Source: Rhizoctonia solani (Eukaryota > Basidiomycota > Agaricomycetes > Cantharellales > Ceratobasidiaceae). Taken from it: DNA of 64,000 nt. Positions 23,893 to 42,804 of this stretch are shown here, piece after piece. The stretch covers positions 1,550,001-1,614,000 of the forward strand of contig NC_057384.1 in NCBI RefSeq assembly GCF_016906535.1. The letters run 5' to 3'. Each line of letters begins with the position of its first letter. Positions within the stretch are counted from its first letter, which is position 1. The position numbers and the translations under genes are program-made. Below the pieces are notes generated by a model. It worked only from the letters and a program-made list of their open reading frames with translations, was not told the DNA's origin and ran no database searches.

Positions 23893-24430
23893 TGTTGTAC
23901 ACCACTGTAAGGTGGGTACTTGCTGGTGAAGGCAGGCGCTTGTGGCCGTGCTACTACACAGATGTATGTAATCTAACTACGTAAGGCTATCTACTACTAA
24001 CTAAGTTGCTTATGGCAACAACTAACTATCTACTGGCAACGCGGAGGGGCCCTAGGCCTGGAGGTGTGGTAAGTTAGGTAAGGGGGTGATGCGTCAGCAG
24101 AACTTCTGGGGGGGCCGGCTACTCAGCTGGCTGGTGCCTCCTCAATGGATATGAGACAAGGTAAAATCAACTTGGGATCTCCAAGCAATTTTCCTGCTGT
24201 TTATATAGACAAGAGAGAAGGTATATACATGGTCTGTGCGTGAGATAAGGAAGCGTTTGTGTGAAAAGAGAAGCGTACTGCGGGCTGCGCAGAAGCGTGG
24301 ATTTCTCCTAAGCGCCCTTGGCACGGCATCTTGGTGCGGCATCTTGGCATGAATAAGTGCCGAGATCACGTGATCAAAAAACATGAGATATTAAGTCCGT
24401 AAAAAATACTAAAAATAATAGAAAATTCAG
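23893..24430 (-). repeat. 3' LTR of gypsy element 2, first part (interrupted)
   Basis: It starts TGTTGTACACC at the TSD and runs to ATTCAG, where element 1 is inserted. The remaining 35 bp lie at 30670-30704. It matches the intact LTR at 42029-42601. Confidence 0.92.
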
Positions 24431-24989
24431 TGTTACAACCTCCTTGAATATACCATTAGAATCGCCCGATTTTTCTATTATTTTTAGTATTTTTTACGGA
24501 CTCTATATCTTTTATTTTTCGATCACGTGACCTCGGCGCTTATCATGCCGAGATGCCGCGCCGAGATGCCGTGCCAAGGGCGCTTAGGAGAAATCCACGC
24601 TTCTACGCAGTCCGCAGCATGCTTCCTTTTTCCAACATGTACTTCTTTTCTCACGCGCACAGACCATGTAGATAGCGCACTTATGTCTATAAATACAGCA
24701 GGGAAATCGCTTGGAAACACCAAGTCGATTTTACCTCGTCTCTTACTCATTAGAGAAGGTAGCCAGCCAGCTAAGTAGCCGGCCCCCTAGTAGTATCAGT
24801 TGCTTACCCCTTATATACACCTACCACACCTCCCAGGCCTAAGGCCCCCACGCAGTAGTATAGAAGTAGCAGACCGCCTTAAGCGGTACTAGGATAGCCT
24901 TAGTTAGTTAGTTTACATAAGCTTGTAGTAGTACGGCCTCAAGTGCCCGCCTCCACTAGCGTGTACCCACATTATAGTGGTGTACGACA
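24431..24989 (+). repeat. 5' LTR of gypsy element 1
   Basis: 559 bp with TG...CA ends. A TATAAATA box at 24688-24695 probably sets the transcript start. Confidence 0.95.
24688..24695 (+). promoter_or_regulatory. TATA box in the LTR of element 1
   Basis: TATAAATA; the same box is at the corresponding place in the 3' LTR, near 30363-30370. Confidence 0.5.
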
Positions 24990-25509
24990 TTGTAAAATTG
25001 ACTTGTTGTAGGCTTGATCGACAAACGAGAAGACTCCTAGTACTAGCACAAGGGAAAAAACCGTGATCGGGGCCACCTTGCGGGACATAATAATCAAAAG
25101 TCCCCCACCCCCACGTAGTACCGAATTGCTATAAGGCTAACGAGTCCTATCGTCCGCATACCACGAGTTTCGCCGGAACTCTGCAGTTAGCGGCCCTAGT
25201 CAGCTGAAGTACCCGCTTGCAAAAAACCCGCTCATATCACGATCACCAGATCTGTTGATTTGTTGTAGGGATTGTCCAACGCTAGGTATTTGACGCAAGG
25301 GTTTAGCGTTTACATACTGCAAAAAAACCGCTCCTAAGTCCTGTATCAGGCACTATCACTCCCCACACGGTTTCATTATTCCATCCACACGCTCTGGCGT
25401 CCCACACCCCTACTCTCGTCCCGCTAGTTGCTCCAGCCGCCGCTCAATTCCATCCCATTCCCAACCACCCACTCGCAGCCCATCTCCCGCTCCGCGAGAC
25501 CTGTCAAGG

Positions 25510-26691
25510 ATGGAACCAGAGCCGTCCACTTCCGCTCTCCTCGAGGCTATCACAGCCCTCACCGCCACAGTTGGGTCCTTGCAGGCCCAAATCACATCCC
25601 AAGGCCAACAGCTCCTCGAGCTCAAAGCCATATGCAAGGAAACCGCGGACCTCCTTGGAGACAAAGACCAGGGAGCCCCTCAAACCCAGCCTGGCCCATC
25701 GACTGGGCCTGTCACTCCTCCCACCCACCAGGGAGGAGAAACCCACACTCCAGGCACGGTTAGGCCTGGGCTCAAGGCCCCGTTCCGGCCCTCAAGGGGA
25801 ACTGGATTTGACTCAGAGGATGAAGAACCAAGGGCTCCCAAAAAGGAGCCTCAAGGAACGCCTAGAAGGCACTTGGGGTCCCTCACCCCCTTCAATGCAG
25901 GGTCCAGTGTAAAAAGACCCAAGATGGACCTTCCCGACCCCTACAAGGGTGACACTAGGGGACGAAAGGCCACTCAGTGGCTTGACCGGATGATGCTGTG
26001 GGTAGCTCTCCACCGCGATCAATTCGACGAAGAAGAGCAGATGGTTGTGTGGATTTTATACCACATGACAGACAAGGCCGCCGACTGGGCTCTCCCCATC
26101 ATTGGGAACATCATCAAGGGCGAGGGTAACCCCCCCACCACCATCCAGGCCCTGACAGGCAAATTCAAGGAGGCATTCGCTGACCCCAATGCCAAGCGGG
26201 CGGCCGCCAGAAAAATAGCCGCGCTCTCCCAAGTCACCACAACCGCCGAGTATGTAACGGAGTTCCGCAACCTCATGGCGGAACTCGACTGGAACGAGGA
26301 GGCCTACATCGCGCAGTTCACGCGAGGTCTCCACTGGAAAGTTAAGGAACTACTATCAACCAAGGATAGTGTCCCCGACGAACTTGAAGCAATTTTTGCG
26401 GCTTCCATCAAAATTGACAATATTCGCCGCGAAAATGAGGAGAACCGCCCTAAAAAGGCACCAGCCAAGCCCCCGGCCACCGTGGCCACCTCCACTACCA
26501 CCACTAGGGTCCGCCTATCCGAGGATCCCAATTATGTCACCCCGGAGGAACAAGACCGCCGCCGCGCAGCCGGGCTATGCGTTAAATGCGGGCAAAAAGG
26601 GCATGGGATCAAACAGTGCCCCAACGGTTGGAAAGCCACGATCAAGGAGGTTGCCAAGGTGGCAGAAGAAGAGGGTTCGGGAAAAGATTGA
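25510..26691 (+). CDS. gag: Gag of gypsy element 1, 393 aa
   Basis: Capsid-nucleocapsid precursor that packages the element RNA in cytoplasmic particles. It opens MEPEPSTSALLEAI and has a short coiled-coil-like stretch (residues 8-55) and a Pro-rich linker (residues 60-130). The retrotransposon gag capsid domain starts about residue 145 (ATQWLDRMMLWVALHRDQF) and runs to about 300. One zinc knuckle, CVKCGQKGHGIKQCP, is at about residues 357-371. The start at 25510 is supported by the matching Gag start in element 2. It ends four codons after the slippery site used to enter pol. Confidence 0.93.
   Translation: MEPEPSTSALLEAITALTATVGSLQAQITSQGQQLLELKAICKETADLLGDKDQGAPQTQPGPSTGPVTPPTHQGGETHTPGTVRPGLKAPFRPSRGTGFDSEDEEPRAPKKEPQGTPRRHLGSLTPFNAGSSVKRPKMDLPDPYKGDTRGRKATQWLDRMMLWVALHRDQFDEEEQMVVWILYHMTDKAADWALPIIGNIIKGEGNPPTTIQALTGKFKEAFADPNAKRAAARKIAALSQVTTTAEYVTEFRNLMAELDWNEEAYIAQFTRGLHWKVKELLSTKDSVPDELEAIFAASIKIDNIRRENEENRPKKAPAKPPATVATSTTTTRVRLSEDPNYVTPEEQDRRRAAGLCVKCGQKGHGIKQCPNGWKATIKEVAKVAEEEGSGKD
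26679..26685 (+). promoter_or_regulatory. -1 ribosomal frameshift site G GGA AAA (element 1)
   Basis: In the gag frame the bases read ..G GGA AAA, the X XXY YYZ pattern, two codons before the gag stop. Slipping back one base leads into the pol frame with no stop (reading GKRLKSRTAAK). The identical heptamer and context occur in element 2 at 40327-40333. I did not fold the downstream RNA. Confidence 0.75.
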
Positions 26692-29600
26692 AGTCGAGGA
26701 CTGCTGCCAAGCCCCCGACTAACAAGGACAATATAGATAGAATCGAATTTGTAAATCTAGGACTGGATTCAAATAAAAAACCGCTATTATTTATCAATCT
26801 AGTTGTCCAAAATTTCCCGGCAGAACCCCTTAAAACCCTAATCGACTCTGGAGCCTCATCGAATTTCATTTCCCCCTCGATTGTGGAAAAATATAAAATA
26901 CCAAAAACCCAACTCAAAAATCCACGAGTTGTGAGGATGTTAGATGGTACAATTTCACAGACTGGTCGCATATGGCACCAGGTTCAACTCGCGGTCTTGG
27001 CCAATGGCCACCCCCACACCATCCCTTTCCTTGTTTGCCCCATAGGCAACACACCGGCTATTCTAGGCATGACATGGTTAACGGCAGAAGCTCCTTTGAT
27101 TGATTGGCAACAGGGATTAGTCACCTTCCCTGAACAAGTCCAAATTGCCTTGGAAGAAGAAGCGGACTCAGATCCTTTAGCAGACCTCCCCCCTCAGTAC
27201 CATGAGTTTGCTAAAGTCTTTGGCAAAGAAGAATTCAAGGTCCTCCCTCCACATAGGGAGTATGACATATCCATTGACCTTGTCCCGGACGCCAAACTGT
27301 CTCCCGGACCCATATATGGCATGACTGATGCGGAATCCAAGGCACTAAAGCAACATATAGACGAAGAATTGGCAACAGGAAAAATCCGCCCTAGTACCTC
27401 CTCTGCCGGCGCTCCCGTCATGTTTGTCAAGAAGGCGGATGGGTCCCTTAGATTAGTCATTGATTACAGAAAGCTGAACGATGTTACCCATAAGAACGTG
27501 TATCCCTTACCAAGGCAGGACGACCTCATGGCCAAACTGAGGCATGCCAAGATCTTCACCAAGTTGGACTTGCGCTGGGGTTACAACAACGTCCGTATCA
27601 AGGAAGGGGATGAATGGAAGACAGCCTTCAGAACCAAATATGGTCTATTCGAGTACTTAGTCATGCCATTTGGACTCACCAACGCCCCAGCCGCATTCCA
27701 GCACTTTATGAATGATCTGTTTCGGGACCTCATTGACGTCACTGTGGTTATCTACTTGGACGACATCCTAATCTTCTCAGAGAACCCCAAGGACCACCCA
27801 ACCCATGTCAGGGAAGTCCTATCACGTTTGATGAAGAACCAGTTGTTCTGTAAACTTTCCAAGTGTCACTTCCACGTCACTACGGTTGACTACCTTGGCA
27901 TCATTATATCCCCTGCGGGCTTCTCTATGGACCAAAAGAAAATCGAGGCAGTAACGTCATGGCCCCAGCCCAAGACAGTCAAGCAAGTCCAGGCGTTCCT
28001 AGGGTTTGTTAATTACCTCAGGCGGTTCATTCCCAACTTCAGCTTGGTCGCACGTCCGCTCCACAACCTCACAAAAAAGGAAACCCCCTGGTCATGGGGC
28101 AACCTAGAGGAATTAGCATTCAAGGAGTTGAAATCTCTGGTTACAAAATCTCCGGTCTTGATCCACTCCAACCCAGCACTACCCTATTACCTTGAAACAG
28201 ATGCATCAGGGGTAGCAATGGGGGCAATACTCAGCCAACGAGGACCAGATAACCGATTACATCCCATTGCCTATATGTCCAAGTCATTTTCGGGAGCAGA
28301 GGCTAATTACGACACCCACGATAAGGAGCTCCTGGCTATCATTAAGGCACTAGAGGAATGGAGAATATTCTTGGAATCAACGGACAAGCCGGTACAAGTG
28401 TTCACAGATCACCGGAATCTGGAATATTGGATGCAGGCACGGACATTCAACAGAAGGCATGCCAGATGGCGCGTATTTCTGAGCGATTTCAACTTTGAAA
28501 TTCACTATCGCCCAGGAAAACAATCAGGAAAGCCAGATGCCCTCTCCAGAAGATCAGACTTTACAGACACCCCCGCCAAACCAGAAGTCATGTTACCATC
28601 AGAAGTTTTTGCCAACACGTCTGAGGAAGAACTTGAGATTGTCACGGAAATTTGAAGCAAGTTGAGGGAGGACCCTTCCCTAGAACCCATCATCCAGTTC
28701 CTGACGGAAGATGCAGACAATGCACCCCCATCTATCCGAAAGGCCTATTGAGATTACGACTGGGAGGAGGATCTTCTATGGTACCGAGGGAAACTAGTGG
28801 TTCCAGATTCAGAACCTATCAAGGAAAGACTATTGAGGGAATTTCACGACTCCCCATTGGCAGGGCACCCAGGCCAACAAAGGACACTTGAACTGATCAG
28901 CCAAAGCTATTGGTGGCCAGGAATGAAATCTTCAGCAAAAGAATGGGTTGAATGCTGTCCCACATGCCAAGCAAACCAACGAGCACACGCCCCAGTCATA
29001 GCCCTGAAACCCCTAGAAGTCCCCCCATTTCCATTCCACACGATCTCTTACGACTTCATCACGGGTTTCCCCAAGTCAAATGGACACAACGCAATCCTGG
29101 TAGTGATTGACTCCTTTTCCAAATTTGGTCACTTCATCCCAACCTCGAAGAAGGTCACAGCCAAGGGTCTAGCAGATTTATTCGTATGCCACGTCTGGAA
29201 ACTACACGGATTACCGGTCAAAACAATCTCGGACCGCGGAACCACATTCACAGGCAAATTCCTAAGGGCGCTATACCAACGGCTCGGAATAAAACCGGCC
29301 TTCTCCTCAGCCTACCACCCGGAATCAGATGGGCAAACGGAGCGGGTGAACCAGTTCATTGAGTTCTACCTCAGATCCTACGTTGCAGCGGACCACTCAG
29401 ACTGGGCCACATGGTTACCATTGGCAGAATACGCTTACAATAATGCAAAACACTCTGCCACAGGGAAAACCCCTTTTGAATTGGTATATGGAAGGAACCC
29501 TGTCATGAACCCATCCAATATCCCTGCCAATGTTCCCGAAGCAGACCTGGTGGCCAACACTCTAGCTCAAGAATGGAAGGAAGCCGAGTCAGCCCTCAGA

Positions 29601-30095
29601 ATGAGCAAGGAACGAATGTCCCGAGATCAAGGGAAGGTACCGGAATACTCAGTAGGCAAGAAAGTTTGGCTAGATGGAAAAAACGTGGAACTTAGGACCA
29701 ATTCAAACAAGTTAGACCCCAAACGACTTGGTCCCTTCAAAGTCATTGAAAGAATCTCTAGCCACGCCTACCGCCTAGAACTCCCAGAGACCCTGAAGAT
29801 CCATGACGTTTTTTATGTTGGGTTATTGTCCAAAAGTCACAAGTCACCAAGCCAACCATTTCCAAGCCGACCCCCTCCTGAGACAATAGAAGGGGAAGAA
29901 GAGTACAAAGTTGAACAGATCATCGACTCCAAAAGACAACGAGGAAAATGGTTCTACCTGATTAAATGGAGAGGCTATGGCCCTGAAGATAATTCATGGG
30001 AACCCGAGGAACTCTTAGAAAATAGCCAAGAAGAGATCAAGCGCTTCAACCAAGCAAGACTCAGAAAGGCTCGTGACGCCGCCAAGAGCCTTTAA
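26679..30095 (+). pseudogene. pol: Pol of gypsy element 1 with two in-frame TGA stops
   Basis: Domains in order: aspartic protease (LIDSGASSNFIS), reverse transcriptase with intact YLDD near 27760, RNase H (YLETDASGVAMGAIL, TDHRNLEYW), integrase zinc finger (HPGQQRT...CPTCQ), integrase core with SYDFITGFP, SDRGTTF and SDGQTERVN (D,D-35-E complete), and a chromodomain near the end (YKVEQIIDSK...KWRGYGPEDNSWEPEEL). The frame is interrupted by TGA at 28653-28655 and at 28749-28751, between RNase H and integrase. Element 2 has Cys and Lys codons at these places. RT and integrase are thus separated and the copy is probably not autonomous unless the stops are read through. Confidence 0.92.
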
Positions 30096-30105
30096 GGGGG
30101 GGCAA

Positions 30106-30664
30106 TGTTACAACCTCCTTGAATATACCATTAGAATCGCCCGATTTTTCTATTATTTTTAGTATTTTTTACGGACTCTATATCTTTTATTTTTCGATCA
30201 CGTGACCTCGGCGCTTATCATGCCGAGATGCTGCGCCGAGATGCCGTGCCAAGGGCGCTTAGGAGAAATCCACGCTTCTACGCAGTCCGCAGCATGCTTC
30301 CTTTTTCCAACATGTACTTCTTTTCTCACGTGCACAGACCATGTAGATAGCGCACTTATGTCTATAAATACAGCAGGGAAATTGCTTGGAAACACCAAGT
30401 CAATTTTACCTCGTCTCTTACTCATTAGAGAAGGTAGCCAGCCAGCTAAGTAGCCGGCCCCCTAGTAGTATCAGTTGCTTACCCCTTATATACACCTACC
30501 ACACCTCCCAGGCCTAAGGCCCCCACGCAGTAGTATAGAAGTAGCAGACCGCCTTAAGCGGTACTAGGATAGCCTTAGTTAGTTAGTTTACATAAGCTTG
30601 TAGTAGTACGGCCTCAAGTGCCCGCCTCCACTAGCGTGTACCCACATTATAGTGGTGTACGACA
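30106..30664 (+). repeat. 3' LTR of gypsy element 1
   Basis: 559 bp, equal in length to the 5' LTR. Four differences from it, each at a CpG in the 5' copy (CpG to TpG three times, CpG to CpA once). The polypurine tract AAGGGGGGGCAA precedes it. Confidence 0.95.
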
Positions 30665-30669
30665 TTCAG

Positions 30670-30704
30670 GCAATTCTAATGGTATATGTTAGGAGGTTAT
30701 AACA
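30670..30704 (-). repeat. 3' LTR of gypsy element 2, remaining 35 bp
   Basis: GCAATTCTAATGG...GGTTATAACA continues the LTR broken at 24430 and ends at the polypurine tract of element 2 (30705-30716, C-rich on this strand). Confidence 0.9.
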
Positions 30705-30715
30705 TTGCCCCCCCC

Positions 30716-31153
30716 TTAAAGGCTCTTGGCGGAGTCACAAGCCTTTTTCAGTCGTGACTTGTTGAAGCATTGGATCTCCTCTTGGCTGTGTTCTAGGAGT
30801 TCTTCCGGTTCCCAGGAATTGTCTTCCGGACCATAACCCTTCCATTTAATTAGGTAGAACCATTTTCCCCGTTGTTGCTTGGAGTCAATGATTTGTTTGA
30901 CCTTGTACTCCTCTTCCCCTTCTATTGTTTCAGGAGGGGGTCTTTCTGGAAATGGTTGACTGGGGGATTTGTGTGCTTTGGATAGTAATCCTACATAGAA
31001 CATGTCATGGATTTTTAGGGTGTCTGGGAGTTTTAGGCAGTAGGCGTGACTTGATATTTTCTCTGTGACTTCAAATGGACCCAGCCACTTGGGGTCCAGC
31101 TTGTTAGAGTTTGTCCTAAGTTCTACATTTTTTCCATCAAGCCAGACTTTCTC
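30716..31153 (-). pseudogene. pol: Pol of gypsy element 2, C-terminal piece with chromodomain
   Basis: The piece starts within integrase (KVWLDGKNVELRTNSNKL) and ends with a chromodomain (YKVKQIIDSK, KWKGYGPEDNSWEPEEL) and the same last residues as element 1. It is cut from the rest of pol at 37344 by element 3. No stop occurs inside the piece. Confidence 0.92.
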
Positions 31154-31621
31154 TGTCATGACCCAATCCATTCTGTCCATGAGTCCTGACCTTGTCAAGC
31201 CTCCAACACACTCATGTTGCACACCAACATGACCGCAAGCACGCATATACTCGCACATATGCACTCAGAACCTCCAGGTTCCCACATATAAGAGACTTAT
31301 GGTCGACATGGCTGGACTTAGTGATATTCTCTAAGTCCAGGTCACATGACCTCCCCCCCTCCAGTCCTTTATCAAATACTATACTAAACTACTACGGATT
31401 TGAGGTGGGGGGGGGATGACATAATCTCTTCTATAATAATATATTATTCAGACCTTGCCTGCGGGCTCCCTTAACATTGGCCCGCGGCTAGGGGGGCGGG
31501 GGGAGTGCAATGTCCCCCAGCAACTTATATTATTAATATATCACTGTGCATCATATATACTATATATATCTTTGACAGTGGATATATATGGTAATAACCC
31601 CTCCAGATATGGGTTATGACA
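31154..31621 (+). repeat. 5' LTR of element 3
   Basis: 468 bp, inverted ends TGTCAT(G/A)ACCC, a TATAAG at 31287-31292, a 14 bp AT palindrome at 31435-31448 and a GC-rich hairpin at 31457-31488. Confidence 0.93.
31457..31488. other. GC-rich hairpin in the element 3 LTR (possible replication origin)
   Basis: Arms GCCTGCGGGC and GCCCGCGGC pair with one bulged base around the loop TCCCTTAACATTG. The second LTR has the same structure at 37179-37210 with one C-to-T change in the right arm. An AT palindrome (AATAATATATTATT) is 8 bp upstream. A GC stem with an AT-rich loop is the form of a CRESS virus origin, but the loop is not the conserved TAATATTAC nonamer. Confidence 0.4.
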
Positions 31622-31938
31622 TTGAAATCAAGCTGCTTACCTATACCCAGTATATATATACATATATATGTGTATATGTATTGCCTATAGGGGATGTAGG
31701 GATGACTAATGCCTCTACATCAATGATGCACAACATATTGTCCCAACAACACGACTTCAGATTACCATTTATGGTAACTCACCTTCCTAATTAGGAAAGA
31801 GACATAACTTGAAGAAGACTTTCAAGACAAATAGAGACTAAGCAACCTAGACCTACCAAAAATGGCAATCCCCTTTCCAAATTAGGAAAGAAGATGAAAT
31901 GGATGGATGACTTAGCTTAGTCAGCTGAACTCTGATGA

Positions 31939-32086
31939 GTCAGCAACCAGATCACATGATCAACTCATTGATGACAAATCAAGTATGACTAAGCATGATG
32001 ACAAATGCTTAGTCAGCAACCAGGTCACATGATCAACTCATGAATGACAAATCAACTATGACCAAGCATAATGACAAATGCTTAGT
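31939..32086 (+). repeat. Tandem repeat, two units of about 73 bp
   Basis: GTCAGCAACCAGATCACATGATCAACTCA... is repeated head to tail with a few substitutions in the leader of element 3. Each unit contains a TCACATGATCA palindromic core. Confidence 0.75.
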
Positions 32087-32687
32087 CATCAAGTACTACC
32101 TGCACTGCCACAATCACATGATGATGGCTGTGCTTGATCTCCAGGTAAAACCAGGCTGGATTGGGGAATAGAATTACCATATAAGGAAATTGGATGAGTC
32201 ATACTTATATTGTGGCTGTGCATGCCAAGAGTATGAGTCATACTTAAGCAGTGTTCCACGTGATCATGTGCTAAAAATAGAACCAACTCTGCCAAGACCT
32301 CACCTCACCGGTGTATTTCTTGGCATCTGATTGGCTAATCAAGCACTGCCACATGGTTTTTTGACTCATACTGCTTCTTGAGGCTGTGCTCCAGCTCTGA
32401 GAGGCTGTGCTCCTATTTGAAATATGTATATAGACCCAAGTGATGCCCAGGTATATATAGGGGTGGAACAAGCTGCTTAGAAAGCCAGCTTGATTTCCCT
32501 TGTCTTACAACCTATAGGGACAAGCAGGTGTTGCTACACCTCAAAAAGAGCAACTGCATGATTTATTTGAAATTCAACTATCAACAACTGTCAACAAAGG
32601 ATCTCCACTGATCCTTCTTTCTGATTAGTGATAAGAAGTACTGTCAGAGTCTTCTCATCACTAGGACCCTAGGTGTCCACTGCTTTA

Positions 32688-32822
32688 CTTGCAAATAGCT
32701 AAAGACTTCCTCTGTGGGTTGCGCTATTTTGCTCCTTACTAACTGAGACTTCTTGTCTTCTTCTTGCAAATAGCTAAAGACTTCCTTTGTGGGTTGCGCT
32801 ATTTGGCTTCTTACTGACTAAG
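32688..32822 (+). repeat. Direct repeat, two units of about 60 bp, 75 bp apart
   Basis: CTTGCAAATAGCTAAAGACTTCCT...GTGGGTTGCGCTATTT occurs at 32688 and 32763, just upstream of the first sense ORF of element 3. Confidence 0.75.
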
Positions 32823-32891
32823 ATAGGTATATCTTGGAACTTGCAAGTAATAGAGACTATTATAGTGCTCTATTTGACCTTTTGCAACAAT

Positions 32892-34127
32892 ATGGGAATT
32901 CATAAGATGCAACCTAGGTGTGTATTTGGGACTTTGCCCCAATTGGATAACCCTGAACATGATCATGTCATGGAGCTGACATCTCCTATGCAAGGCATGG
33001 AACAGGGACATCAGGAAGGAGTAGGAATCACCCCTTCTAAACAGGCTGACCAACTGGATATGGAATCATTTCAACTTGCCACAGCTAGGATCCTAGACCC
33101 TAGGCATGAGAATCCAGGGAATAACACACCCTTGGAGGACCCTGCCACCAGGGAAAAGGAAACCCCTTTGGTAGATGAGGCAACCAGGAATAAGACAGTG
33201 AAGGATTTTATTGAAGACTTTTTTGCCAAATTCCCTGAGGAAACTCAACCACCAAAAACTGAGGCAAACAGGAAACGGATTACTAATGACCACCTTACAA
33301 GTACCCAAAAGGTCTATGGATTCTTAATGGAACTAGTAATGGGAGTCAAAAGGTTGGAGAAACATATTGACAACCATCTAAAGATGGAACAGGAAATGCT
33401 GGATTGAGGCATTTCTCAGGAAGTGATTGATGAATTGGATAAAATACTTCCCTTGTCTTCCCTCTGGGAGGCTGAGAACTACAGTGAATCCAATTCCAAT
33501 AAATCAGGGTCTACTGAAATCCAATGTGAGGTGTGTGGGAGAACAAACCACTCTACTGAAGAACATAGGAAATCACGTGACCCTAGGGCAAAGGGCAATA
33601 AAGGGTCTGACAAGCGGAAAGATAAGGGTCCTGGCAACCCAGGGTATAAAGGAAGGCATCCCATGCCTGGGAAGTCATCTCAAACCACCACTGGCACCAC
33701 TACTTTCTTATCCATCCCCATTACTAAGACATCATGCCTGCCATCAGAACAGAGACCAGGATCTCCAAGGCCACTGGAGATGCCACCTCTTACCACCTTG
33801 ACAGATCCAGTGAGCACAGGACCAAGTTCCCTTGGTCCCAGGACAACCTGGATCAATGGGCACCCCCAGATCCATCCATGGGCTGGAACATGGGGAATGA
33901 TCAACCCCCTATCACCAACATCTATGACTGGCATAAGGTCATCACAAGATGTGACTCCTTCCAACAATCCAAGGCTTATGCCAAACTACTTGATCCCTCA
34001 GCAACCCTTGATTACATACCAATGGGTCAACAATGGAAATGCTACTGGATTGGAAGAACCCTACGCTGTCCAATCAGGGGATACCTCTGCTGGGTTGGCA
34101 GTGAGCCACCAAAACAACCCAAACTAA
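32892..34127 (+). pseudogene. Element 3 sense ORF A, gag-like with CCHH zinc knuckle, one internal stop
   Basis: The frame opens at an ATG at 32892 (MGIHKMQPRC), is acidic and helical, and is stopped by TGA at 33405-33407. It then remains open to 34127. After the stop comes a knuckle CEVCGRTNHSTEEH (C-x2-C-x4-H-x4-H), followed by a Lys/Arg-Gly-rich patch, as in nucleocapsids. The last part (from about 33720) is Ser/Thr/Pro-rich and probably out of frame, since the overlapping frame of ORF B looks more protein-like there. A gag origin is suggested by the knuckle and position only; no capsid domain is recognised. A similar CCHH knuckle occurs in the LINE ORF1 at the right end of the window. Confidence 0.5.
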
Positions 34128-34591
34128 TGCAAAGTACCAAGTTCTTTGTGTGTAGAGGTAATGTGGGTGCCTCTGTGGAGGATGTAGTGAGGGCCCCAGT
34201 GCTAAAGCACACAAGGAAGTTGGCAGAGTGGCATCTAGGCATTGAGGAAATTGATCCTGAATGGTGGATACCAATCTCAACAGTAAGGGAATGGCTGGCT
34301 GCGGAAATTGAAAACTGGAAAAACAAACTGCCATCAGGCTTAGGTGGCTATGTGGACAACCTCACTCCTGAGGATGTCTATTACATGATCCTAGAACGCG
34401 AAATGAGCATAGAGGATCTACATGACTGGCTCAAACAATGGGCCATGCAAGCAGCTCAGAATGATCTGAGCAGAAGTATATCTAACTTAGCAATCCATGA
34501 ACTAAGTGATGAAGGAGGACATGAGTCTGACCTTGAAAGTAACAAGGCCATGAACAAATGGAATCCCTTGGATTATGCTGATGGAATGTGA
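33734..34591 (+). CDS. Element 3 sense ORF B, unrecognised, up to 285 aa
   Basis: The frame lies -1 relative to ORF A and overlaps it. Composition is that of a real protein, rich in Trp (WSQDNLDQW, MGQQWKCYWIG, DPEWWIP, WLAAEIENW) and with an acidic tail. It may be entered by a -1 shift or a lost frame from ORF A, or by its own ATG at 33734. No domain is recognised. It occupies the place where an ambisense CRESS genome would keep its capsid gene, but nothing in the sequence shows that it is one. It ends about 210 bp before the convergent Rep gene; an inverted repeat TGGAATGT/ACATTCCA lies at 34582-34610. Confidence 0.5.
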   Translation: MPAIRTETRISKATGDATSYHLDRSSEHRTKFPWSQDNLDQWAPPDPSMGWNMGNDQPPITNIYDWHKVITRCDSFQQSKAYAKLLDPSATLDYIPMGQQWKCYWIGRTLRCPIRGYLCWVGSEPPKQPKLMQSTKFFVCRGNVGASVEDVVRAPVLKHTRKLAEWHLGIEEIDPEWWIPISTVREWLAAEIENWKNKLPSGLGGYVDNLTPEDVYYMILEREMSIEDLHDWLKQWAMQAAQNDLSRSISNLAIHELSDEGGHESDLESNKAMNKWNPLDYADGM

Positions 34592-34802
34592 TGAAATATG
34601 TAACATTCCATTAGTTACCTTACATTCTTCTCTTCTTCCTTTTCTTCCAATGTTTGATCCTTCTTAGTAACCATGTGTCTTATCTGATCTTCCAAGAATC
34701 ATTTTATCTCTAAATGCCAAATGGAGGAAGAGAAAGGATGCCTTTATTAAGACAGGAACCAGAACAGACAAGACAAGGAAAGACAAGACAAAGAGGAACT
34801 TT

Positions 34803-36481
34803 CTAATACAGCTTATCACCAATATACACAAAGGTACAATTGGTGTCAATCCAATTCTTGCCATCAACTGTGGCATAACTACAATCAGCAAATACAGAAG
34901 GCTTAGAATTGGAACATATAACAGTAGAACGCCCCCATTGGCAATGGCGCTCTGATCTATAACTAGTGTGGAAGTTGAAGTCTTCCTGCACCCACATCTT
35001 CAAAGGAACCTTGGACCAATCCATATCATCCAGCACTGCATACTGAACCATAGGATGGTCACTAAACTCATCAGAGTTGAGGTTCTGCCTGAACCTAATA
35101 TGGTGCCCCCAAGAACAAGCCAGGGCTGACTTCCCTGTTTCTGAGGGCCCCCACAAAACAAGGATCTTACCACAATCAGATTCAGGGTCACGTTCCAATA
35201 TATTGGAAGCAACCCACTCCTGAACACCAGGTGGCAAGTTGACTGTAGCCCTGGTAACAACTTGTCAACATTCTCTTCTATGATGAAAAAGAAGAGGACT
35301 TACTTCTTAAGGGCCTTGGGTTCACATACACCCTGAGGAAGGGCACCCTTGTCCCTGTAGAAGTAACCAGTGAAAGCCTTGAGGTTGTTATACCCCATGG
35401 CCATATCACAAGGTTGGCGCTCCTTTAAGCAACCAAAAAATCCCTCAGCATCCTCTGCCTCCATGGCATAGGCAAAATCTTCATTACGCTGTAATAAGAG
35501 AACCATCAGCTGAGAACCTCTTTCCATAACCAGGGACTTACATTGGTCTTAGCCTTCAACCCTGCAGGGCACTGGCCTAATAAGAACTCCTCTGTAAGGT
35601 TCCCATATCTTGCCTCCCAGGCATCTGCCTCCTTCTTGAGATACTCATAGGCTGATAAAGGGGCAAACCTTCCCTTATCATCCCTAAGTACAAGAAGACG
35701 CTCATGAGGGCGCACTCCCTTATACTTCCATAGGTTCAGGGCCTCTGATGAGATGAGGGTCCTGGCCCAAACAATAACATGGCAATGCCAATCAGGCTGC
35801 CATTCACCTTCCCTCAGGTCATGGGACTCAGTGACTCCCATGGCATACTCCAAAAGGGAATTTGCCCCACTCCTCAGAGTAAGAAGATGATCTACAAGAC
35901 TTGAATAATCTTCAGTAAAAGTAAAAACATCCTGGGTATAACTACTTACTCTTTTATAACCTCATGGCAAGAGGTTTCCCTTGTCTCCTCACTCTTGACA
36001 TAACAAGCATAAGTGAGAAGATAACACTTCCCCTTACGACAGAAGTGCCTTCCTTCTTGGGGAAGAACCCCAATGTCCTCCTGCCCTTCAGGGGCTGCAG
36101 GAACAATAGATTCCCTTGACTCCAATGGAGCCATGGATGGGACAATGGAGCTTCCTCCATTTTCTAAGTCTTCCCTGTTGCTGGGCACTGCTAACCAACG
36201 CCTGGACAAGGGGGGAAGCACGCAGGATATCTGTGACTTTACAGTTATCTTTTAGTAAAAGGATTTTGCTAGCAAACAAGACCACTTACTCCTTCTTCTT
36301 GGGAGTCCAGATCCAGCCTTCTTTTGAGAGTCCTGGGAGTGAGCTGTGACAGAGGCAGCTCTTGACTCTGCCACACAGTAGATGCAATCTGGGAAACATA
36401 GGGGGTGGCATCCAACAGCCCTGAAGGCTGTGAATCCAAGACTGTGGAGGGAGTGGCGCTGGCAGTTGGGCATTGAGACAT
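34803..36481 (-). CDS. CRESS/geminivirus-type Rep-like protein, HUH endonuclease plus SF3 helicase, about five exons
   Basis: Rep proteins nick the origin with a tyrosine and unwind DNA in rolling-circle replication. On the minus strand, exons near 36290-36481, 35953-36249, 35510-35900, 35303-35474 and 34803-35247 are separated by short GT-AG introns. HUH motif I (CYLLTYACY) is at 36001-36031, motif II with HCHVIV at 35770-35788, and motif III of the form YxxKxxD at 35622-35649. The helicase has Walker A GPSETGKSAL at 35128-35151, Walker B VLDDM at 35022-35036 and motif C VICSNS at 34904-34923. The join between the second and third exons does not keep frame in my model, so there may be a lesion or an intron border I have wrong. 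Introns show adaptation to a nuclear gene. It lies antisense inside element 3. Confidence 0.78.
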
Positions 36482-36876
36482 GTTGATGACTTATCCCACC
36501 TCCCACTGCCCTCTTCTTTATACCATGGGGGCCAAGAGACTGAATCAGAGGGAAATGACTTACTATACCAATCCTTTCTGAACAATAAAATGGCACCATA
36601 CAGTAACCAAGCAACCATGAAATATGTTGCTAACCAGGAACTTCCAGAAGACTTGAGAAGTTGCTTTACAAAGACTGTAGTGTGGGAACTTTCCCACAGG
36701 AAGAAAACAACATTCCAATAAGGATCACATGACCAAGAACAAGTCAGGTGACCTCAGAACAACTCATTGCACAATTGTACTTAGGAGAACTTGACACCTA
36801 ATAAGATATCTATCCAGATATCTTTTCTAATGGCACAAGTTCATGTCCCCTAAACTATGTGCAAAAGGGGGGGCAA

Positions 36877-37343
36877 TGTCATGACCCACTCCATTCTGTC
36901 CATGAGTCCTGACCTTGTCAAGCCTCCAACACACTCATGTTGCACACCAACATGACCGCAAGCACGCATATACTCGCACATATGCACTCAGAACCTCCAG
37001 GTTCCCACATATAAGAGACTTATGGTCGACATGGCTGGACTTAGTGATATTCTCTAAGTCCAGGTCACATGACCTCCCCCCCTCCAGTCCTTTATCAAAT
37101 ACTATACTAAACTACTACGGATTTGAGGTGGGGGGGGATGACATAATCTCTTCTATAATAATATATTATTCAGACCTTGCCTGCGGGCTCCCTTAACATT
37201 GGCCTGCGGCTAGGGGGGCGGGGGGAGTGCAATGTCCCCCAGCAACTTATATTATTAATATATCACTGTGCATCATATATACTATATATATCTTTGACAG
37301 TGGATATATATGGTAATAACCCCTCCAGATATGGGTTATGACA
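36877..37343 (+). repeat. 3' LTR of element 3
   Basis: 467 bp, nearly identical to the 5' LTR. Differences seen include one base in ACCCAATCC versus ACCCACTCC, the length of a G run, and one CpG-to-TpG change in the hairpin arm. Confidence 0.93.
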
Positions 37344-40333
37344 TTCTTGCCCACGGAGTATTCCGGGATTATCCCTCTTGGTCTTGTCATACGTTCTTTA
37401 GTCATTCTGAGTGCTGACTCTGCCTCCTGCCATTCCTGGGCCAGGGTATTGGCTACCAAATCTGCTTCTGGTACATTGGCTGGTACGGTTGACGGATTCA
37501 TTACAGGATTCCTTCCATCAACCAGTTCAAAGGGGGTCTTTCCGGTTGCAGCGTGTTTAGCGTTATTGTAAGCGTATTCCGCAAGTGGCAACCATTTGGC
37601 CCAGTCCAAGTGGTCTGCTGCTACATAAGATCTCAGGTAGAACTCAATGAACTGGTTGACGCGCTTGGTCTGTCCGTCTGATTTGGGGTGATAGGCCAAT
37701 GAGAAGGCAGGCTTAATTCCAAGTTGTTGGTATAGTGCCCTGAGGAACTTCCCGGTGAACGTGGTACCTCTATCAGAGACGGTTTTTATGGGTAATCCAT
37801 GTAGTTTCCAGACGTGGTTGACAAATAAGTCTGCTAAACCCTTTGATGTGACCCTTTTTGAGGTGGGAATAAAATGACCAAATTTTGAAAAGGAATCAAT
37901 TACAACTAGTATGGCGTTGTGTCCCTGGGATTTGGGGAACCCTGTGATGAAGTCATAGGAGATGGTGTGAAAAGGATAAGGGGGAACTTCTAACAGCTTC
38001 AGGGAGATAACTGGGGCATGCGCACGTTGGTTGGCTTGACAAGCTGGGCAGCATTTGACCCATTCCTTAGCAGAAGATTTCATTCCGGGCCACCAATAGC
38101 TCCTGCTGATAAGTTTGAGCGTCCTTTGTTGGCCTGGATGACCTGCCAGTGGGGAGTTGTGGAATTCCCTTAATAGTTGCTCTTTCAGGGGTTCTGAGTC
38201 CAGAACCACCAGTTTTCCGCGGTACCATAGCAAATCTTTTTCCCAATCATAGTCCTTATAGGCTTTCCTAATCAAAGGGGGTGCGTTGTCTACATCTTCA
38301 GTAAGGAACTTGATAATGGGTTCCAGTGATGGATCTTCCTTGAGCTTGGTGCAAATATCCGTGACAATATCTAATTCCTCTTCCAATGTATTTGCAAAAA
38401 CCTCTGGTGGTAGCATGACTTCTGGTTCTTGGGGGGTATCAACATAGTCCAATTGTCTGGACAAGGCATCCGGCTTCCCTGATTGCTTCCCTGGGCAATA
38501 ATGTATTTTGAAGTTAAAGTTGCTCAGGAATACGCGCCATCTAGCATGCCGTTGATTGAATGTCCTTGCCTGCATCCAGTACTCAAGGTTGCAGTGGTCT
38601 GTAAATACCTGAACCAGCTTGTCCGTGGCTTCCAGGAAAATGCGCCATTCCTCCAAGGCCTTGATGATGGCCAGGAGTTCCTTGTTGTGAGTGTTGTAGT
38701 TTCCCTCTGCCCCTGAGAATGATTTGGACATATACGCAATTGGGTGTAGCCGGTTATCTGAGCCCCGCTGACTAAGAATGGCTCCCATGGCAACTCCTGA
38801 GGCGTCTGTCTCAAGGTAATAAGGGAGTTCTGGGTTGGAGTGGATGAGAACTGGCAACTTGGTGACAAGAACCTTCAACTCCTGAAATGCTACTTCCTCT
38901 AGGTTGCCCCAAGACCAGGGGGTTTCCTTTCTGGTGAGGTTGTGCAGAGGGCGTGCTACTGAACTGAAATTGGGGATGAAGCGGCAGAGGTAGTTGACAA
39001 ATCCTAGGAAGGCTTGGACCTGCTTGACTGTTTTGGGGGTTGGCCAAGACATGACCGCCTCAATCTTCTTCTGATCCATGGAGAAGCCTGCCAGGGAAAT
39101 GACTATACCCAAGTAGTCCACTGTGGTGACATGGAAGTGACACTTGGAGAGTTTACAGAACAACTGATTCTTCATCAACTGTGATAGGACTTCCCTGACA
39201 TGGGTTGGGTGGTCCTTGGGGTCCTCTGAGAAGATCAGGATGTTGTCCAAGTAGATAACCACTGTGACGTCAATGAGGTCCCTAAACAGGTCATTCATGA
39301 AATGTTGGAAGGCGGCTGGGGCATTGGTAAGGCCAAAGGGCATCACCAGGTATTCAAATAACCTGTACTTTGTTCTAAATGCTGTCTTCCATTTGTCTCC
39401 TTCCTTGATCCTGACGTTGTTGTAGCCCCAGCGTAGATCAAGCTTTGTGAATATTTTAGCATGTCTCAGCTTTGCCATGAGGTTGTCCTGTCTTGGGAGT
39501 GGATATACATTTTTGTGGGTTACATCATTGAGTTTTTGGTAATCCACAACCAGCCTAAGAGATCTGTCTGCCTTCTTAACAAACATGACTGGGGCACCGG
39601 TGGAAGAAGTGCTGGGGCGGATCTTGCCTGTTGCCAATTCTTTGTCAATGTGCTGCTTGAGCGCCTTGGATTCAGCATCAGTCATGCCATATAAGGGTCC
39701 TGGGGATAGTTTGGCATCCGGGACAAGGTCTATGGATATATCATACTCCCTATGTGGAGGGAGGACCTTAAACTCTTCTTTGCCAAAGACTTTAGCAAAT
39801 TCATGGTACTGAGGGGGGAGGTCTGCCAAAGGATCTAGGTCCGCTTCTTCCTCAGAGGCAATCTGTGCTTGTTCAGGGAAGGTGATTAGTCCCTGTTGCC
39901 AGTCAATAAGGGGGGCTTCTGTTGTTAACCAAGTCATGCCAAGAATTGCCGGGGTGTTGCCAATGGGGCAAACAAGAAAGGGAATGGAGTGGGAATGGCC
40001 ATTGGCCAAAACAGTGAGGTGAACCTGGTGCCAAATGCAACCAGTCTGGGATATAGTACCATCTAACATTCTCACAACTTGTGGATTTTTGAGTTGGGTC
40101 TTTGGGATTTTGTATTTTTCCACAATTGAGGGGGAGATAAAGTTTGATGTGGCTCCTGAGTCAATGAGGGTTCTAAGGGGTTCTGCCGGGATGTTTTGGA
40201 TATATAGATTGATGAAAAGAAGTGGTTTTTTATTTGAGTCCAAACCAAGATTTACAAATTCCATGCTATCTACTATAACGTCCGTTTTTTGAGTTGGGGG
40301 CTTGGCAGCAGTCCTTGACTTCAATCTTTTCCC
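37344..40333 (-). pseudogene. pol: Pol of gypsy element 2, main part, catalytic residues lost
   Basis: Protease (LIDSGATSNFIS), RT, RNase H (ETDASGVAMGAIL) and integrase core are all present without stops up to the insertion point of element 3. The RT box is YLDN instead of YLDD (codon at 39242-39244), and the integrase Glu of GQTE is Lys (GQTKRVN). Many other changes relative to element 1 are D to N, E to K, G to R, R to Q, R to C or P to L, all explained by G-to-A or C-to-T. The copy is therefore enzymatically dead even without the nested insert. Confidence 0.9.
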
Positions 40334-41508
40334 AACTTGACATCTTCAGCCACCTTGGCTACCTCTTTGATTGTGGCTTTCCAGCGATTGGGGCATTGTT
40401 TGATGCCGTGCCCCTTTTGGCTGCATTTGACGCATAGCCCTGATGCGCGGCAGCAGTCCCTTTCCTCCGGTGTGACGTAGTTGGGGTCTTCCAATAGGCA
40501 GACCCGTTGAGTGGTAGTGGTGGAGGTGGTGGCCACAGTGGCCGGGGATTTGGCAGGGACCTTCTTTGGCCGGTTTTCCTCATTTTTGCGGCGGATGTTA
40601 TTGATTTTAATTGCCGCTGCAAAGATGGCTTCAAGATTGTCAGGGATGCTATCCTTGGTAGACAACAGTTCCTTGACTTTCCAGTGGAGGCCTTGCGTGA
40701 ACTGTGCAATATAGGCCTCCTCATTCCAGTCTAATTCTGCAATGAGGTTGCGGAACTCTGTGACATACTTGGAGGTGGTGGAGGTTTGGACCAGGGTAGC
40801 TATTTTCCTGGCGGCGGCCCGTTTGGCGTTGGGGTCAGCAAAGGCCTCCTTGAATTTGGCTGTTAGGGCCTGGATAGTGGTAGGAGGGTTACCTTTGCCC
40901 TTGATGATGTTTCCAATGATGGGGAGGGCCCAGTTGGCAGCCTTGTCTGTCATGTGGTATAAGATCCACACAACCATCTGCTCCTCCTCATCAAATTGGT
41001 CCCGGTGGAGTGCAACCCAGAGCATCATCCTATCAAGCCATTGGGTAGCCTTACGTCCCCTAGTGTTGCCTTTATAGGGGTCCAGAAGATCCATCTTGGG
41101 CCGCTTTACGGAGGACCCTGAATTGAAGGGGGTGAGGGACCCTAAGTGCCTCTTAGGCGTTCCTGTAGGCTCCTTTTTGGGGTGCCTTGGCTCTTCCTCT
41201 TCCTCTGAATCAAATCCGGTTCCCCTGGTGGGTTGGAAAGGGGCTTTGAGCCCAGGCCTAACCGTGCCTGGAGTGTGGGTTTCTCCTCCCAAATGAGTGG
41301 GGGGAGTGACAGGCCCAGTCAATGGGCCAGGCTGGGCTTGTCCTCCTTGATCCTTGTTGCCAAGGAGGTTGGCGGTTTCCTTGCATATGGCCTTGAGTTG
41401 GATGAGTTCTTGGCCTTGTGATTTGATTTGGTCCTGCAAGGACCCAACAGTGGCAGTGAGGGCTGTGATAGCCTTGAGGAGAGCGGTAAGGGACGGCTCT
41501 GGTTCCAT
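40321..41508 (-). CDS. gag: Gag of gypsy element 2, about 395 aa
   Basis: The start at 41508 (MEPEPSLTALLKAI) matches element 1. It has the capsid domain (ATQWLDRMMLWVALHRDQF) and knuckle CVKCSQKGHGIKQCP, and the frame is intact to the stop after GKD. It is probably not expressed usefully given the state of pol. Confidence 0.88.
   Translation of the reverse strand: MEPEPSLTALLKAITALTATVGSLQDQIKSQGQELIQLKAICKETANLLGNKDQGGQAQPGPLTGPVTPPTHLGGETHTPGTVRPGLKAPFQPTRGTGFDSEEEEEPRHPKKEPTGTPKRHLGSLTPFNSGSSVKRPKMDLLDPYKGNTRGRKATQWLDRMMLWVALHRDQFDEEEQMVVWILYHMTDKAANWALPIIGNIIKGKGNPPTTIQALTAKFKEAFADPNAKRAAARKIATLVQTSTTSKYVTEFRNLIAELDWNEEAYIAQFTQGLHWKVKELLSTKDSIPDNLEAIFAAAIKINNIRRKNEENRPKKVPAKSPATVATTSTTTTQRVCLLEDPNYVTPEERDCCRASGLCVKCSQKGHGIKQCPNRWKATIKEVAKVAEDVKLGKD
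40327..40333 (-). promoter_or_regulatory. -1 ribosomal frameshift site G GGA AAA (element 2)
   Basis: Same heptamer, same codon phase and same distance to the gag stop as in element 1, although the flanking sequence has diverged. Confidence 0.75.
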
Positions 41509-42028
41509 CCTTGGCAAGTCTTGCGGAGTGGGAGATGCGCTGCGAGAGGGTGGTTGGGAATGGGTTGGAATGGAATGGCAGCTGGAGCGGCTGGAGGGGC
41601 GCAAGTAGGGGTGAGGGACGCCAGAGCGTGTGGATGGTATAGTGAAGACGGCGTGGGGGATAAGAGTGCCTGATTCAGGACTTATGAGCGGTTTTTGCGC
41701 AGTGTGTGAACGCTAAATCCTTGCGTCAGACACCTAGCGTTGTACAATCCCTACAACAAATCAACAGATCTGGCAATTGTGATACAAGCGGGTTTTTTGC
41801 AAGCGGGTGGTTCAGCTGTCTAGGATTGCTAACTGCTGTGTTCCAGCAAAACACGTGGTATGCAGACAATTAGAGACTGTCTGCCTTATAGCAATTTGGT
41901 ACTGGGTGGGACCAACAGCTGTTTGATTATTAAAGCTGAAAGGCGAGTCCAATCACCTGTTTTCCCTTGTGCTAGTATGGGAGTTCCTCTTGTTTGTCAA
42001 TCAAGCCTACAAAAAGTCAATTTTACAA

Positions 42029-42601
42029 TGTTGTACACCACTGTAAGGTGGGTACTTGCTGGTGAAGGCGGGCGCTTGTGGCCGTGCTACTACACAGATG
42101 TATGTAATCTAACTACGTAAGGCTATCTACTACTAACTAAGTTGCTTATGGCAACAACTAACTATCTACTGGCAATGCGGAGGGGCCCTAGGCCTGGAGG
42201 TGTGGTAAGTTAGGTAAGGGGGTGATGCGTCAGCAGAACTTCTGGGGGGGGCGGCTACTCAGCTGGCTGGTGCCTCCTCAATGGATATGAGACAAGGTAA
42301 AATCAACTTGGGATCTCCAAGCAATTTTCCTGCTGTTTATATAGACAAGAGAGAAGGTATATACATGGTCTGTGCGTGAGATAAGGAAGCGTTTGTGTGA
42401 AAAGAGAAGCGTACTGCGGGCTGCGCAGAAGCGTGGATTTCTCCTAAGCGCCCTTGGCACGGCATCTCAGCGCGGCATCTTGGCATAAATAAGCGCCAAG
42501 ATCACGTGATCAAAAAACATGAGATATTAAGTCCGTAAAAAATACTAAAAATAATAGAAAATTCAGGCGATTCTAATGGTATATGTTAGGAGGTTATAAC
42601 A
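42029..42601 (-). repeat. 5' LTR of gypsy element 2, intact
   Basis: 573 bp, starting TGTTGTACACC and ending GGTTATAACA on the plus strand, next to the TSD CAGCC. Confidence 0.94.
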
Positions 42602-42804
42602 CAGCCATCCAAGAGTTCCGCATCCCATTTATTGGCTTCTTTAATGTATACGTTCCAAACCCTTGCATCTTTTGCAAGCTTGGAACCATACTTGTCTGGT
42701 TTCAGTAATGGATCATCACATTTACAAGCCAAAATCATGTACAACAATGTCCTGGACACAGTCACATGACCAGTACAAGTGGTTGCATGCTGGCCCAAGC
42801 CCAA
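42602..42804 (-). pseudogene. DUF6535-family gene, 5' part
   Basis: The translation LAKDARVWNVYIKEANKWD is the family's N-terminal hallmark (W-x-V-Y-x-x-E-A) and leads into ELLDG at the TSD. It continues in frame on the other side of the retrotransposon nest at 23882-23892 (Trp-Asn-Lys then a GT donor). The upstream start is not resolved; a tRNA-like repeat sits a few bases upstream at 42813. Confidence 0.8.

Follow-up and report, generated by a model that had tools for sequence, protein, structure and literature searches.

Rep Genes of Predicted Geminivirus Type Inside Non-Autonomous LTR Retrotransposons of Rhizoctonia solani

Introduction

Among the literature searched, the case nearest to the element described here is a Rep-carrying, geminivirus-like transposon of Tuber melanosporum, for which the available text reports 37-bp terminal inverted repeats, transposase open reading frames (ORFs), an interrupted Rep ORF and no obvious target-site duplications (TSDs) (Liu et al. 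2011, PMC3198968). Our element lies on the plus strand at positions 31154-37343 of a 64,000-nucleotide stretch of Rhizoctonia solani DNA (assembly GCF_016906535.1, contig NC_057384.1, positions 1,550,001 to 1,614,000 of the forward strand), which is called the window below. Like the Tuber transposon as reported there, it is a multi-copy fungal mobile element bearing a geminivirus-like gene for a replication initiator (Rep). Unlike that transposon, it is carried by a long terminal repeat (LTR) retrotransposon with 5-bp TSDs, and its Rep is intact and selected.

In Chaetoceros tenuissimus, a broken Rep fragment from a single-stranded DNA (ssDNA) virus is thought to have been inserted by a long interspersed nuclear element (LINE), as stated in the available part of the report (PMC8613185). 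Both cases tie an ssDNA-virus Rep in a host genome to retrotransposition; the Chaetoceros fragment, as far as that text describes it, is no part of a mobile element, whereas the R. solani Rep travels inside one and is selected. With the Geminiviridae and Genomoviridae, as we understand these families, the R. solani element shares a Rep with HUH nuclease and helicase regions, an ambisense layout and, opposite the Rep strand, a hairpin whose loop has 9 nt. In contrast to these viruses, it has no canonical nonanucleotide and no recognised coat protein, and it is chromosomal and LTR-flanked. Gene-carrying non-autonomous LTR retrotransposons, such as maize Bs1, hold a foreign gene between their LTRs and are mobilised in trans. 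The R. solani element differs from this type in that the captured gene is a replication initiator, antisense, intron-bearing and under purifying selection. No LTR element with a Rep gene was described among the best-matching titles and abstract openings of a mostly open-access literature of published papers.

The reading that we favour, at a probability of roughly 0.6, is that the R. solani element is a non-autonomous, Gypsy-derived element mobilised by an autonomous partner, and that its Rep acts on the element in circular or LTR-flanked form.

An LTR Element with an Antisense Rep Gene

The first-pass annotation of the window described an LTR element with TG...CA ends, a polypurine tract and a 5-bp TSD. 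This anatomy is borne out; the TSD agrees at four of five positions here and is exact in four other copies. The features, from comparison of the LTRs and reading of the flanks, are as follows (window coordinates).

31154-37343, plus strand: LTR element, recognised by its LTRs, primer-binding site (PBS), polypurine tract and TSD
31149-31153: TSD on the 5' side, TTCTC (4/5 against TTCTT)
31154-31621, plus strand: LTR at the 5' end, TG...CA
31636-32734, plus strand: leader common to the gag-pol partner, 93-96% identity in aligned pieces
32735-36840: cassette (sense ORF and antisense Rep), no match in the partners L021 and L022
36863-36876, plus strand: polypurine tract AAAAGGGGGGGCAA, directly before the TG of the 3' LTR, identical in L021 and L022
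36877-37343, plus strand: LTR at the 3' end
37344-37348: TSD on the 3' side, TTCTT

The LTRs measure 468 bp (5') and 467 bp (3'), have the termini TGTCATGACC...GGGTTATGACA and differ by two mismatches over 467 aligned bases plus one gap column. Because their start-to-start distance is 5723, a one-LTR circle would measure about 5.7 kb. The sense ORF stops at 34591 and Rep at 34803, so that the 3' ends converge, in agreement with the ambisense circle layout proposed at first pass. Neither the ORF list nor a Pfam scan of eight ORFs revealed reverse transcriptase (RT), integrase or gag in the element, as had been stated for the first two, and the element is therefore regarded as non-autonomous.

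Judged from its motifs and from fold matches, the antisense gene encodes a Rep of the geminivirus/genomovirus type. The initial description of a spliced minus-strand gene with HUH motifs I-III and Walker A, B and C motifs proved correct: five exons of 192, 281, 358, 185 and 448 nt encode 487 amino acids, and all motifs could be located.

36290-36481, minus strand: Rep exon 1
35950-36230, minus strand: Rep exon 2, with motif I (LLTYA)
35542-35899, minus strand: Rep exon 3, with HUH motif II (WHCH) and motif III (YLKK)
35304-35488, minus strand: Rep exon 4, central domain, Gemini_AL1_M-like
34803-35250, minus strand: Rep exon 5, helicase with Walker A, Walker B, motif C and the stop codon

Exon junctions were fixed through comparison of two diverged alleles. 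The four introns are all GT..AG and measure 59, 50, 53 and 53 nt; their GT donors are retained in 17 of 17 alignable loci, and exon lengths are equal in all eight intact copies (window, L002, L005, L006, L007, L013, L014 and L018). Following what we take to be the definitions of the Rep HUH and helicase motifs, we placed LLTYA at residue 135, WHCH at 195, YLKK at 244, GPSETGKS at 373, VLDDM at 411 and VICSN at 449. The full set of HUH I-III, Walker A, Walker B and motif C is present in six of the eight intact copies.

Protein searches returned 31 relatives in the first search and an overlapping 43, one of them nameless, in a profile search. Every named relative belongs to Rhizoctonia solani or Ceratobasidium sp. 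423, with AG-8 and AG2-2 IIIB among the sources, and some carry the source names 'Geminivirus Rep catalytic domain' or 'Replication-associated protein'. With a low-confidence AlphaFold2 model of one relative, P0001, as query, a fold search matched 29 viral models at E<=0.001. Of these, 18 are named, and every one is a Rep, chiefly from geminiviruses and genomoviruses. The same model found nothing significant in the PDB (wheat dwarf virus Rep at rank 4, E 0.4), sequence searches of the PDB gave no match up to E 10, and a PHROGs search was uninformative.

Copy Number and Insertion Sites

Searched against the 40.7-Mb genome, the helicase exon of Rep gives 23 matches and a part of the sense ORF 25, most of these at Rep loci. 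About 20 Rep-bearing copies are spread over many contigs, which excludes a chance insertion. The further copies with both LTR and Rep that the first-pass annotation had proposed to look for do exist: an LTR of the window type adjoins the Rep cassette in 19 of 19 LTR-family loci examined (the window and 18 of the 20 fetched loci, leaving out the partial match C14:992551). In the remaining two fetched loci, L012 (5029-5677) and L020, a 649-bp Rep piece with intron 4 lies within another Gypsy element. It should be noted that the database protein P0031 fuses a Rep piece of this 649-bp type to a Tf2-like polyprotein.

Where copy ends could be read, flanks differ between copies, most with individual duplications. 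Eight copies retain both LTRs in full or almost in full; among them, the TSD is exact in four (L002 CTACA, L004 AATAT, L005 GTATC and L006 TGAGC; flanks read by eye), matches at four of five positions in two (window and L013) and is not visible by eye in two (L010 and L014). That the locus is an assembly artefact or a single chance insertion is next to impossible in view of these copies, with independent flanks where read, and of homologues in other Rhizoctonia strains and in Ceratobasidium. The first-pass annotation had taken gag-pol copies of the same LTR family as the sign of a chance insertion. Such copies were found (L021 and L022, see below), and the conclusion attached to them fails on the roughly 20 Rep copies. 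An earlier count, in which all same-orientation LTR pairs at <=15 kb enclosed Rep (9/9 by hand), was discarded as biased, since 40 of 279 candidates were scored and gag-pol elements share the LTR.

The window element itself is inserted in the pol gene of a minus-strand Gypsy element (Gypsy B), and the disrupted Gypsy B is adjoined by another (Gypsy A, ~24430-30666). Together they form a nest at 23893-42602, in which Gypsy A (plus strand) stands beside LTR pieces of Gypsy B (minus strand) and the Rep element splits the Gypsy B pol.

Selection on Rep

Coding-sequence comparisons between copies show that Rep has been kept functional by purifying selection within LTR lineages. Between the window gene (allele A) and that of L005 (allele B), nonsynonymous divergence (dN) is 0.040 and synonymous divergence (dS) 0.354. 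The dN/dS ratio for this pair is 0.035 in the helicase and 0.083 in the HUH region, and constraint on the protein is tightest in its central and helicase regions. In a neutral simulation, the same kind of mutations were placed randomly in 2000 runs and the amino acid changes were counted. For each of the pairs window-L005, window-L014 and L005-L007, none of the 2000 simulations gave changes as few as observed (for L005-L007, 23 against 37.7 expected). As L005 and L007 are both B-type and about 5% apart along the aligned element, the constraint acted inside LTR elements.

The old Rep allele carried by L005, L006 and L007 is distinct from that of the window. In introns 2 and 3, alleles A and B are identical at 26 of 49 and 30 of 52 positions, whereas L005 and L006 show 92-100% identity with the window per 150-bp bin outside the Rep allele region (~34650-36300). 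Clear A/B recombinants are L014 and L019, and L010 and L016 are likely ones. This pattern suggests gene exchange confined to Rep.

Such divergence, far higher in Rep than elsewhere in the element, also fits an alternative in which Rep and the sense ORF came from a circular replicon and are unused passengers, with a low dN/dS that dates from before capture and with alleles A and B captured separately. This alternative, which we consider improbable, has in its favour two observations that count against our favoured reading as well: Rep is broken in 9 and intact in 8 of the 17 loci alignable over the whole gene (L011, L012, L017 and L020, alignable in part, are set apart), and the simulation finds no Rep constraint in the closest pairs, window-L002, window-L013 and L005-L006. 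Unconstrained closest pairs are as expected for single inserted copies that drift, and lend no support to the favoured reading. The passenger explanation is at odds with the purifying selection between the two B-type genes L005 and L007 and with the presence of the whole cassette in several independent insertions.

An Autonomous Gag-Pol Partner

Two elements of the same genome, L021 and L022, are about 7.5 kb long with open gag and pol, flanked by the TSDs GTATC and CTTCT, respectively. Their LTR pairs are 99% identical in L021 and 100% identical over 460 bp in L022, and RT, RNase H, integrase and a chromodomain are recognised in L021. They share with the Rep element the LTR from nt 56, the PBS, the leader, the polypurine tract, an internal self-primer and an LTR hairpin. 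Similarity ends at 32734 and starts again at 36840; unlike the Rep element, the partners hold gag-pol between these points and have no match to the Rep cassette. Part of the partner gag has 10 genome matches. A genome-wide pattern search located the LTR hairpin in 116 places (<=2 mismatches), the PBS in 43 and the internal start module in 32, so these motifs are more numerous than the Rep cassette.

By these alignments, the ends, PBS and leader of the Rep element belong to a chromodomain Ty3/Gypsy family of the same genome, which had not been noted before. The Rep element is best read as a relative of this autonomous family in which gag-pol was replaced by a 4.1-kb cassette. The genome thus holds partners with open gag-pol and matching ends that can provide RT and integrase in trans, and both enzymes probably come from this source.

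The first-pass annotation had left two origins side by side, a retroelement that captured Rep and a DNA replicon that acquired LTRs; the backbone shared with Gypsy brings the former nearer. The converse proposal, that the primary entity is a circular Rep-encoding ssDNA (CRESS)-like DNA replicon which gained its LTR ends and integrates by means of them, draws on the ambisense layout, on the hairpin between divergent genes on the would-be circle and on the lack of this hairpin in three other LTRs (Gypsy A, Gypsy B and L023). We hold it to be very unlikely. Ends, PBS, leader and polypurine tract are common to the autonomous Gypsy family, which marks the backbone as that of a retroelement; a scan of viral contigs with the Rep alignment gave 88 pattern stretches, none of which was confirmed as a relative; and the named Rep matches are confined to the two fungi given above.

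The LTR Hairpin as a Candidate Origin

Each LTR contains a hairpin, CTGGACTTAG-TGATATTCT-CTAAGTCCAG, that we regard as a candidate origin for Rep on the basis of its structure and position.

31312-31340, plus strand: hairpin with a perfect 10-bp stem and the 9-nt loop TGATATTCT, candidate Rep origin
37035-37063, plus strand: the copy of this hairpin in the 3' LTR

Like its geminivirus counterpart, the hairpin occupies the strand opposite to that of Rep, and a circle with one LTR would have it between the two divergent genes. Read by eye, 25 of 27 LTRs of Rep elements have the unchanged loop and 24 of 27 a perfect stem. Of 3000 shuffles, 3 produced a 10-bp stem with a 9-11-nt loop, and none did so when a loop matching the canonical nonanucleotide TAATATTAC at >=6/9 positions was also required. 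The Gypsy A LTR has no comparable stem of >=8 bp, and that of Gypsy B has one of 8 bp. For ssDNA viruses, the available text of PMC3187698 describes how replication releases unit genomes from copies that carry two origins, an arrangement that the two LTR hairpins would resemble.

A third kind of element, L023 (G000:C4:642000-650200, ~3.1 kb), has the 3' part of the LTR and the PBS as in the Rep element; it lacks the hairpin, shows no match to Rep and contains no sense-strand ORF of 150 amino acids. Its LTR reaches ~95% identity downstream, starting at the last base of the hairpin, and 80% through the whole 3' LTR. The motifs GGTCACATGACC and TCACATGA were considered as Rep iterons and rejected, as GGTCACATGACC, which adjoins the hairpin, is conserved even in the LTR of L023, where the hairpin is missing. 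For TCACATGA, 6 of its 10 window matches fall within the element, a plain count with no chance test behind it.

Besides the rejected iterons, several further findings weigh against the favoured reading. The Rep-less partner carries the same hairpin, which is thus not Rep-specific; the loop TGATATTCT agrees with TAATATTAC at only 6/9 positions, and TAATATTAC with <=1 mismatch is absent from the element. A second, AT-rich stem occurs in all three LTRs compared, so LTR stems are not rare here. With respect to the protein, the motif III lysine is replaced by threonine in L007 and L018; these two elements (G000:C12 ~236000-252800) are inverted relative to each other at a distance of ~7 kb, carry identical Rep genes and are therefore not independent. 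The P0001 fold model is of low confidence, with a predicted local distance difference test (pLDDT) score of 42.8. The check with Rep profiles proposed at first pass gave a mixed result: Pfam Gemini_AL1_M matches 9 of 15 members of the Rep alignment at E<=0.1 (best 1.6e-5), the window Rep itself scoring E 0.012, under the cut-off, and the catalytic family Gemini_AL1 has no match in the genome, in a search whose control was silent too.

The hairpin in the Rep-less partner and the non-canonical loop agree with a Rep that selection maintains inside the LTR element in some other role than rolling-circle replication, such as countering host silencing or helping the integration of cDNA, the hairpin being an ordinary regulatory or RNA structure of the LTR. 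Geminivirus Rep can affect host silencing. This explanation is tentative and, in our judgement, clearly behind the favoured one in likelihood. All nuclease and helicase motifs are kept in six of eight intact copies, which indicates that catalysis matters, and constraint is strongest in the central and helicase regions.

Primer-Binding Site and Internal Self-Primer

The signals for priming of the element are listed below.

31622-31635, plus strand: PBS TTGAAATCAAGCTG
32452-32459, plus strand: TATATATA box (TATA), its first base 34 nt before the self-primer segment
32486-32497, plus strand: CAGCTTGATTTC, a 12-nt PBS complement; putative RNA 5' end and internal self-primer

In Tf1, according to the available part of the source (PMC7175516), the RNA begins with the PBS complement, which makes up its first 11 nt. 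As in Tf1/Tf2 so described, the PBS-complementary segment follows a TATA box by ~34 nt, which fits self-priming, and the 12-nt complement may represent a Tf1-like RNA 5' end. In Gypsy A and Gypsy B of the window the complement lies in the LTR, whereas that of the Rep element is placed ~865 nt downstream of the PBS (module TATATATA...CAGCTTGATTTCCCTTGTCT; 865 nt in the window element). The Rep-element LTR has no such complement (best 11/18), and a 12-nt PBS complement appeared by chance in 4 of 2000 single-base shuffles. In Gypsy A, the complement starts ~33 nt after a TATA box; its 14 nt match exactly in the 3' LTR and with one difference in the 5' LTR. The arrangement in the Gypsy B LTR is the same, with a weaker complement of 12/18. 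Rep elements and partner alike have their PBS complement ~0.8-0.9 kb past the PBS, outside the LTR, a location unusual among self-primed elements.

A variable site of the PBS and its counterpart in the module were compared in 27 loci, matched by hand on position and strand from the 43 PBS and 32 module matches. The combinations were T/A in 9, A/T in 15, T/T in 3 and A/A in none, so that pairing is kept in 24 of 27 (two-sided Fisher p 4.7e-5, a value that ignores kinship). Linkage was also compared across 17 sites in 10 copies whose leader could be aligned, and this site pair ranks highest, tied with one other. If the internal RNA start is real, only a circular or tandem template could yield an RNA that holds both self-primer and PBS. 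Simpler than such a template would be priming in trans, or priming in cis on RNA that starts in the LTR.

The Sense Gene

The other gene of the cassette reads toward Rep.

32892-34591, plus strand: sense gene, two overlapping frames (N-terminal p%3=0, C-terminal p%3=2)

Its two ends are constrained in different frames, and between 33731 and 34093 neither frame is clearly the more constrained. Of 14 aligned copies, four (window, L006, L008 and L014) have the N-terminal frame interrupted by a TGA at 33405; the codon there is most often CAA (6 of 14). Some database gene models imply an intron at ~34094-34155 (placed by eye), and P0038 aligns in frame across the last ~29 nt of this putative intron. 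The product contains a CX2CX4HX4H motif followed by a basic stretch, as seen by eye. Its database relatives number 10, nine from Rhizoctonia solani and one nameless metagenome protein. No Pfam family scored above cut-off, and the fold model was unusable (pLDDT 29). The idea that the sense ORF is a gag relative was dropped, as BLASTP found no similarity to the gag of L021 or of Gypsy A; a capsid-like or nucleic-acid-binding role is a guess. The database proteins P0034 and P0035, which contain the sense ORF, bear the name Vegetative incompatibility protein HET-E-1, which was probably transferred to them in error.

Proposed Mechanism and Implications

According to the reading that we favour, the partner would supply RT and integrase in trans, and an antisense promoter would drive Rep expression. 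Since the transposed RNA is presumably the sense strand, the Rep introns would survive each cycle. Rep would find its targets in forms of the element that are circular or flanked by LTRs, where it would most likely nick the LTR hairpin. It may release and amplify one-LTR circles, as geminivirus Rep frees unit genomes from two-origin copies, and so raise the amount of template. The origin-like LTR hairpin and the internal self-primer are two hints of a circular phase. Because both also occur in the Rep-less partner, rolling-circle replication is a step that we infer. A Rep-driven circular phase is our favoured, putative explanation.

A more elaborate scheme, doubtful though conceivable, is that the element alternates between two modes. 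Rep would nick the hairpins of both LTRs and free a one-LTR circle for rolling-circle copying. RNA from the internal promoter (~32486) would then run around the circle, gaining the self-primer at its 5' end together with the PBS, and the partner RT would make LTR-flanked linear DNA for integration. The whole would amount to a pararetrovirus-like cycle combined with CRESS replication, in which the Rep element feeds or parasitises its chromovirus partner.

A selected antisense Rep in an LTR family suggests a merger of two modes of multiplication. The internal self-primer, present also in an autonomous element with identical LTRs, yields a testable prediction on RNA starts and on transcription of circles. 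If Rep works on the elements that carry it, reverse transcription and rolling-circle replication would be joined in one mobile element, and this would offer a concrete route by which retroelements and circular ssDNA viruses could exchange genes. A viral-type replication initiator selected inside LTR retrotransposons calls for an explanation even if it has no such action.

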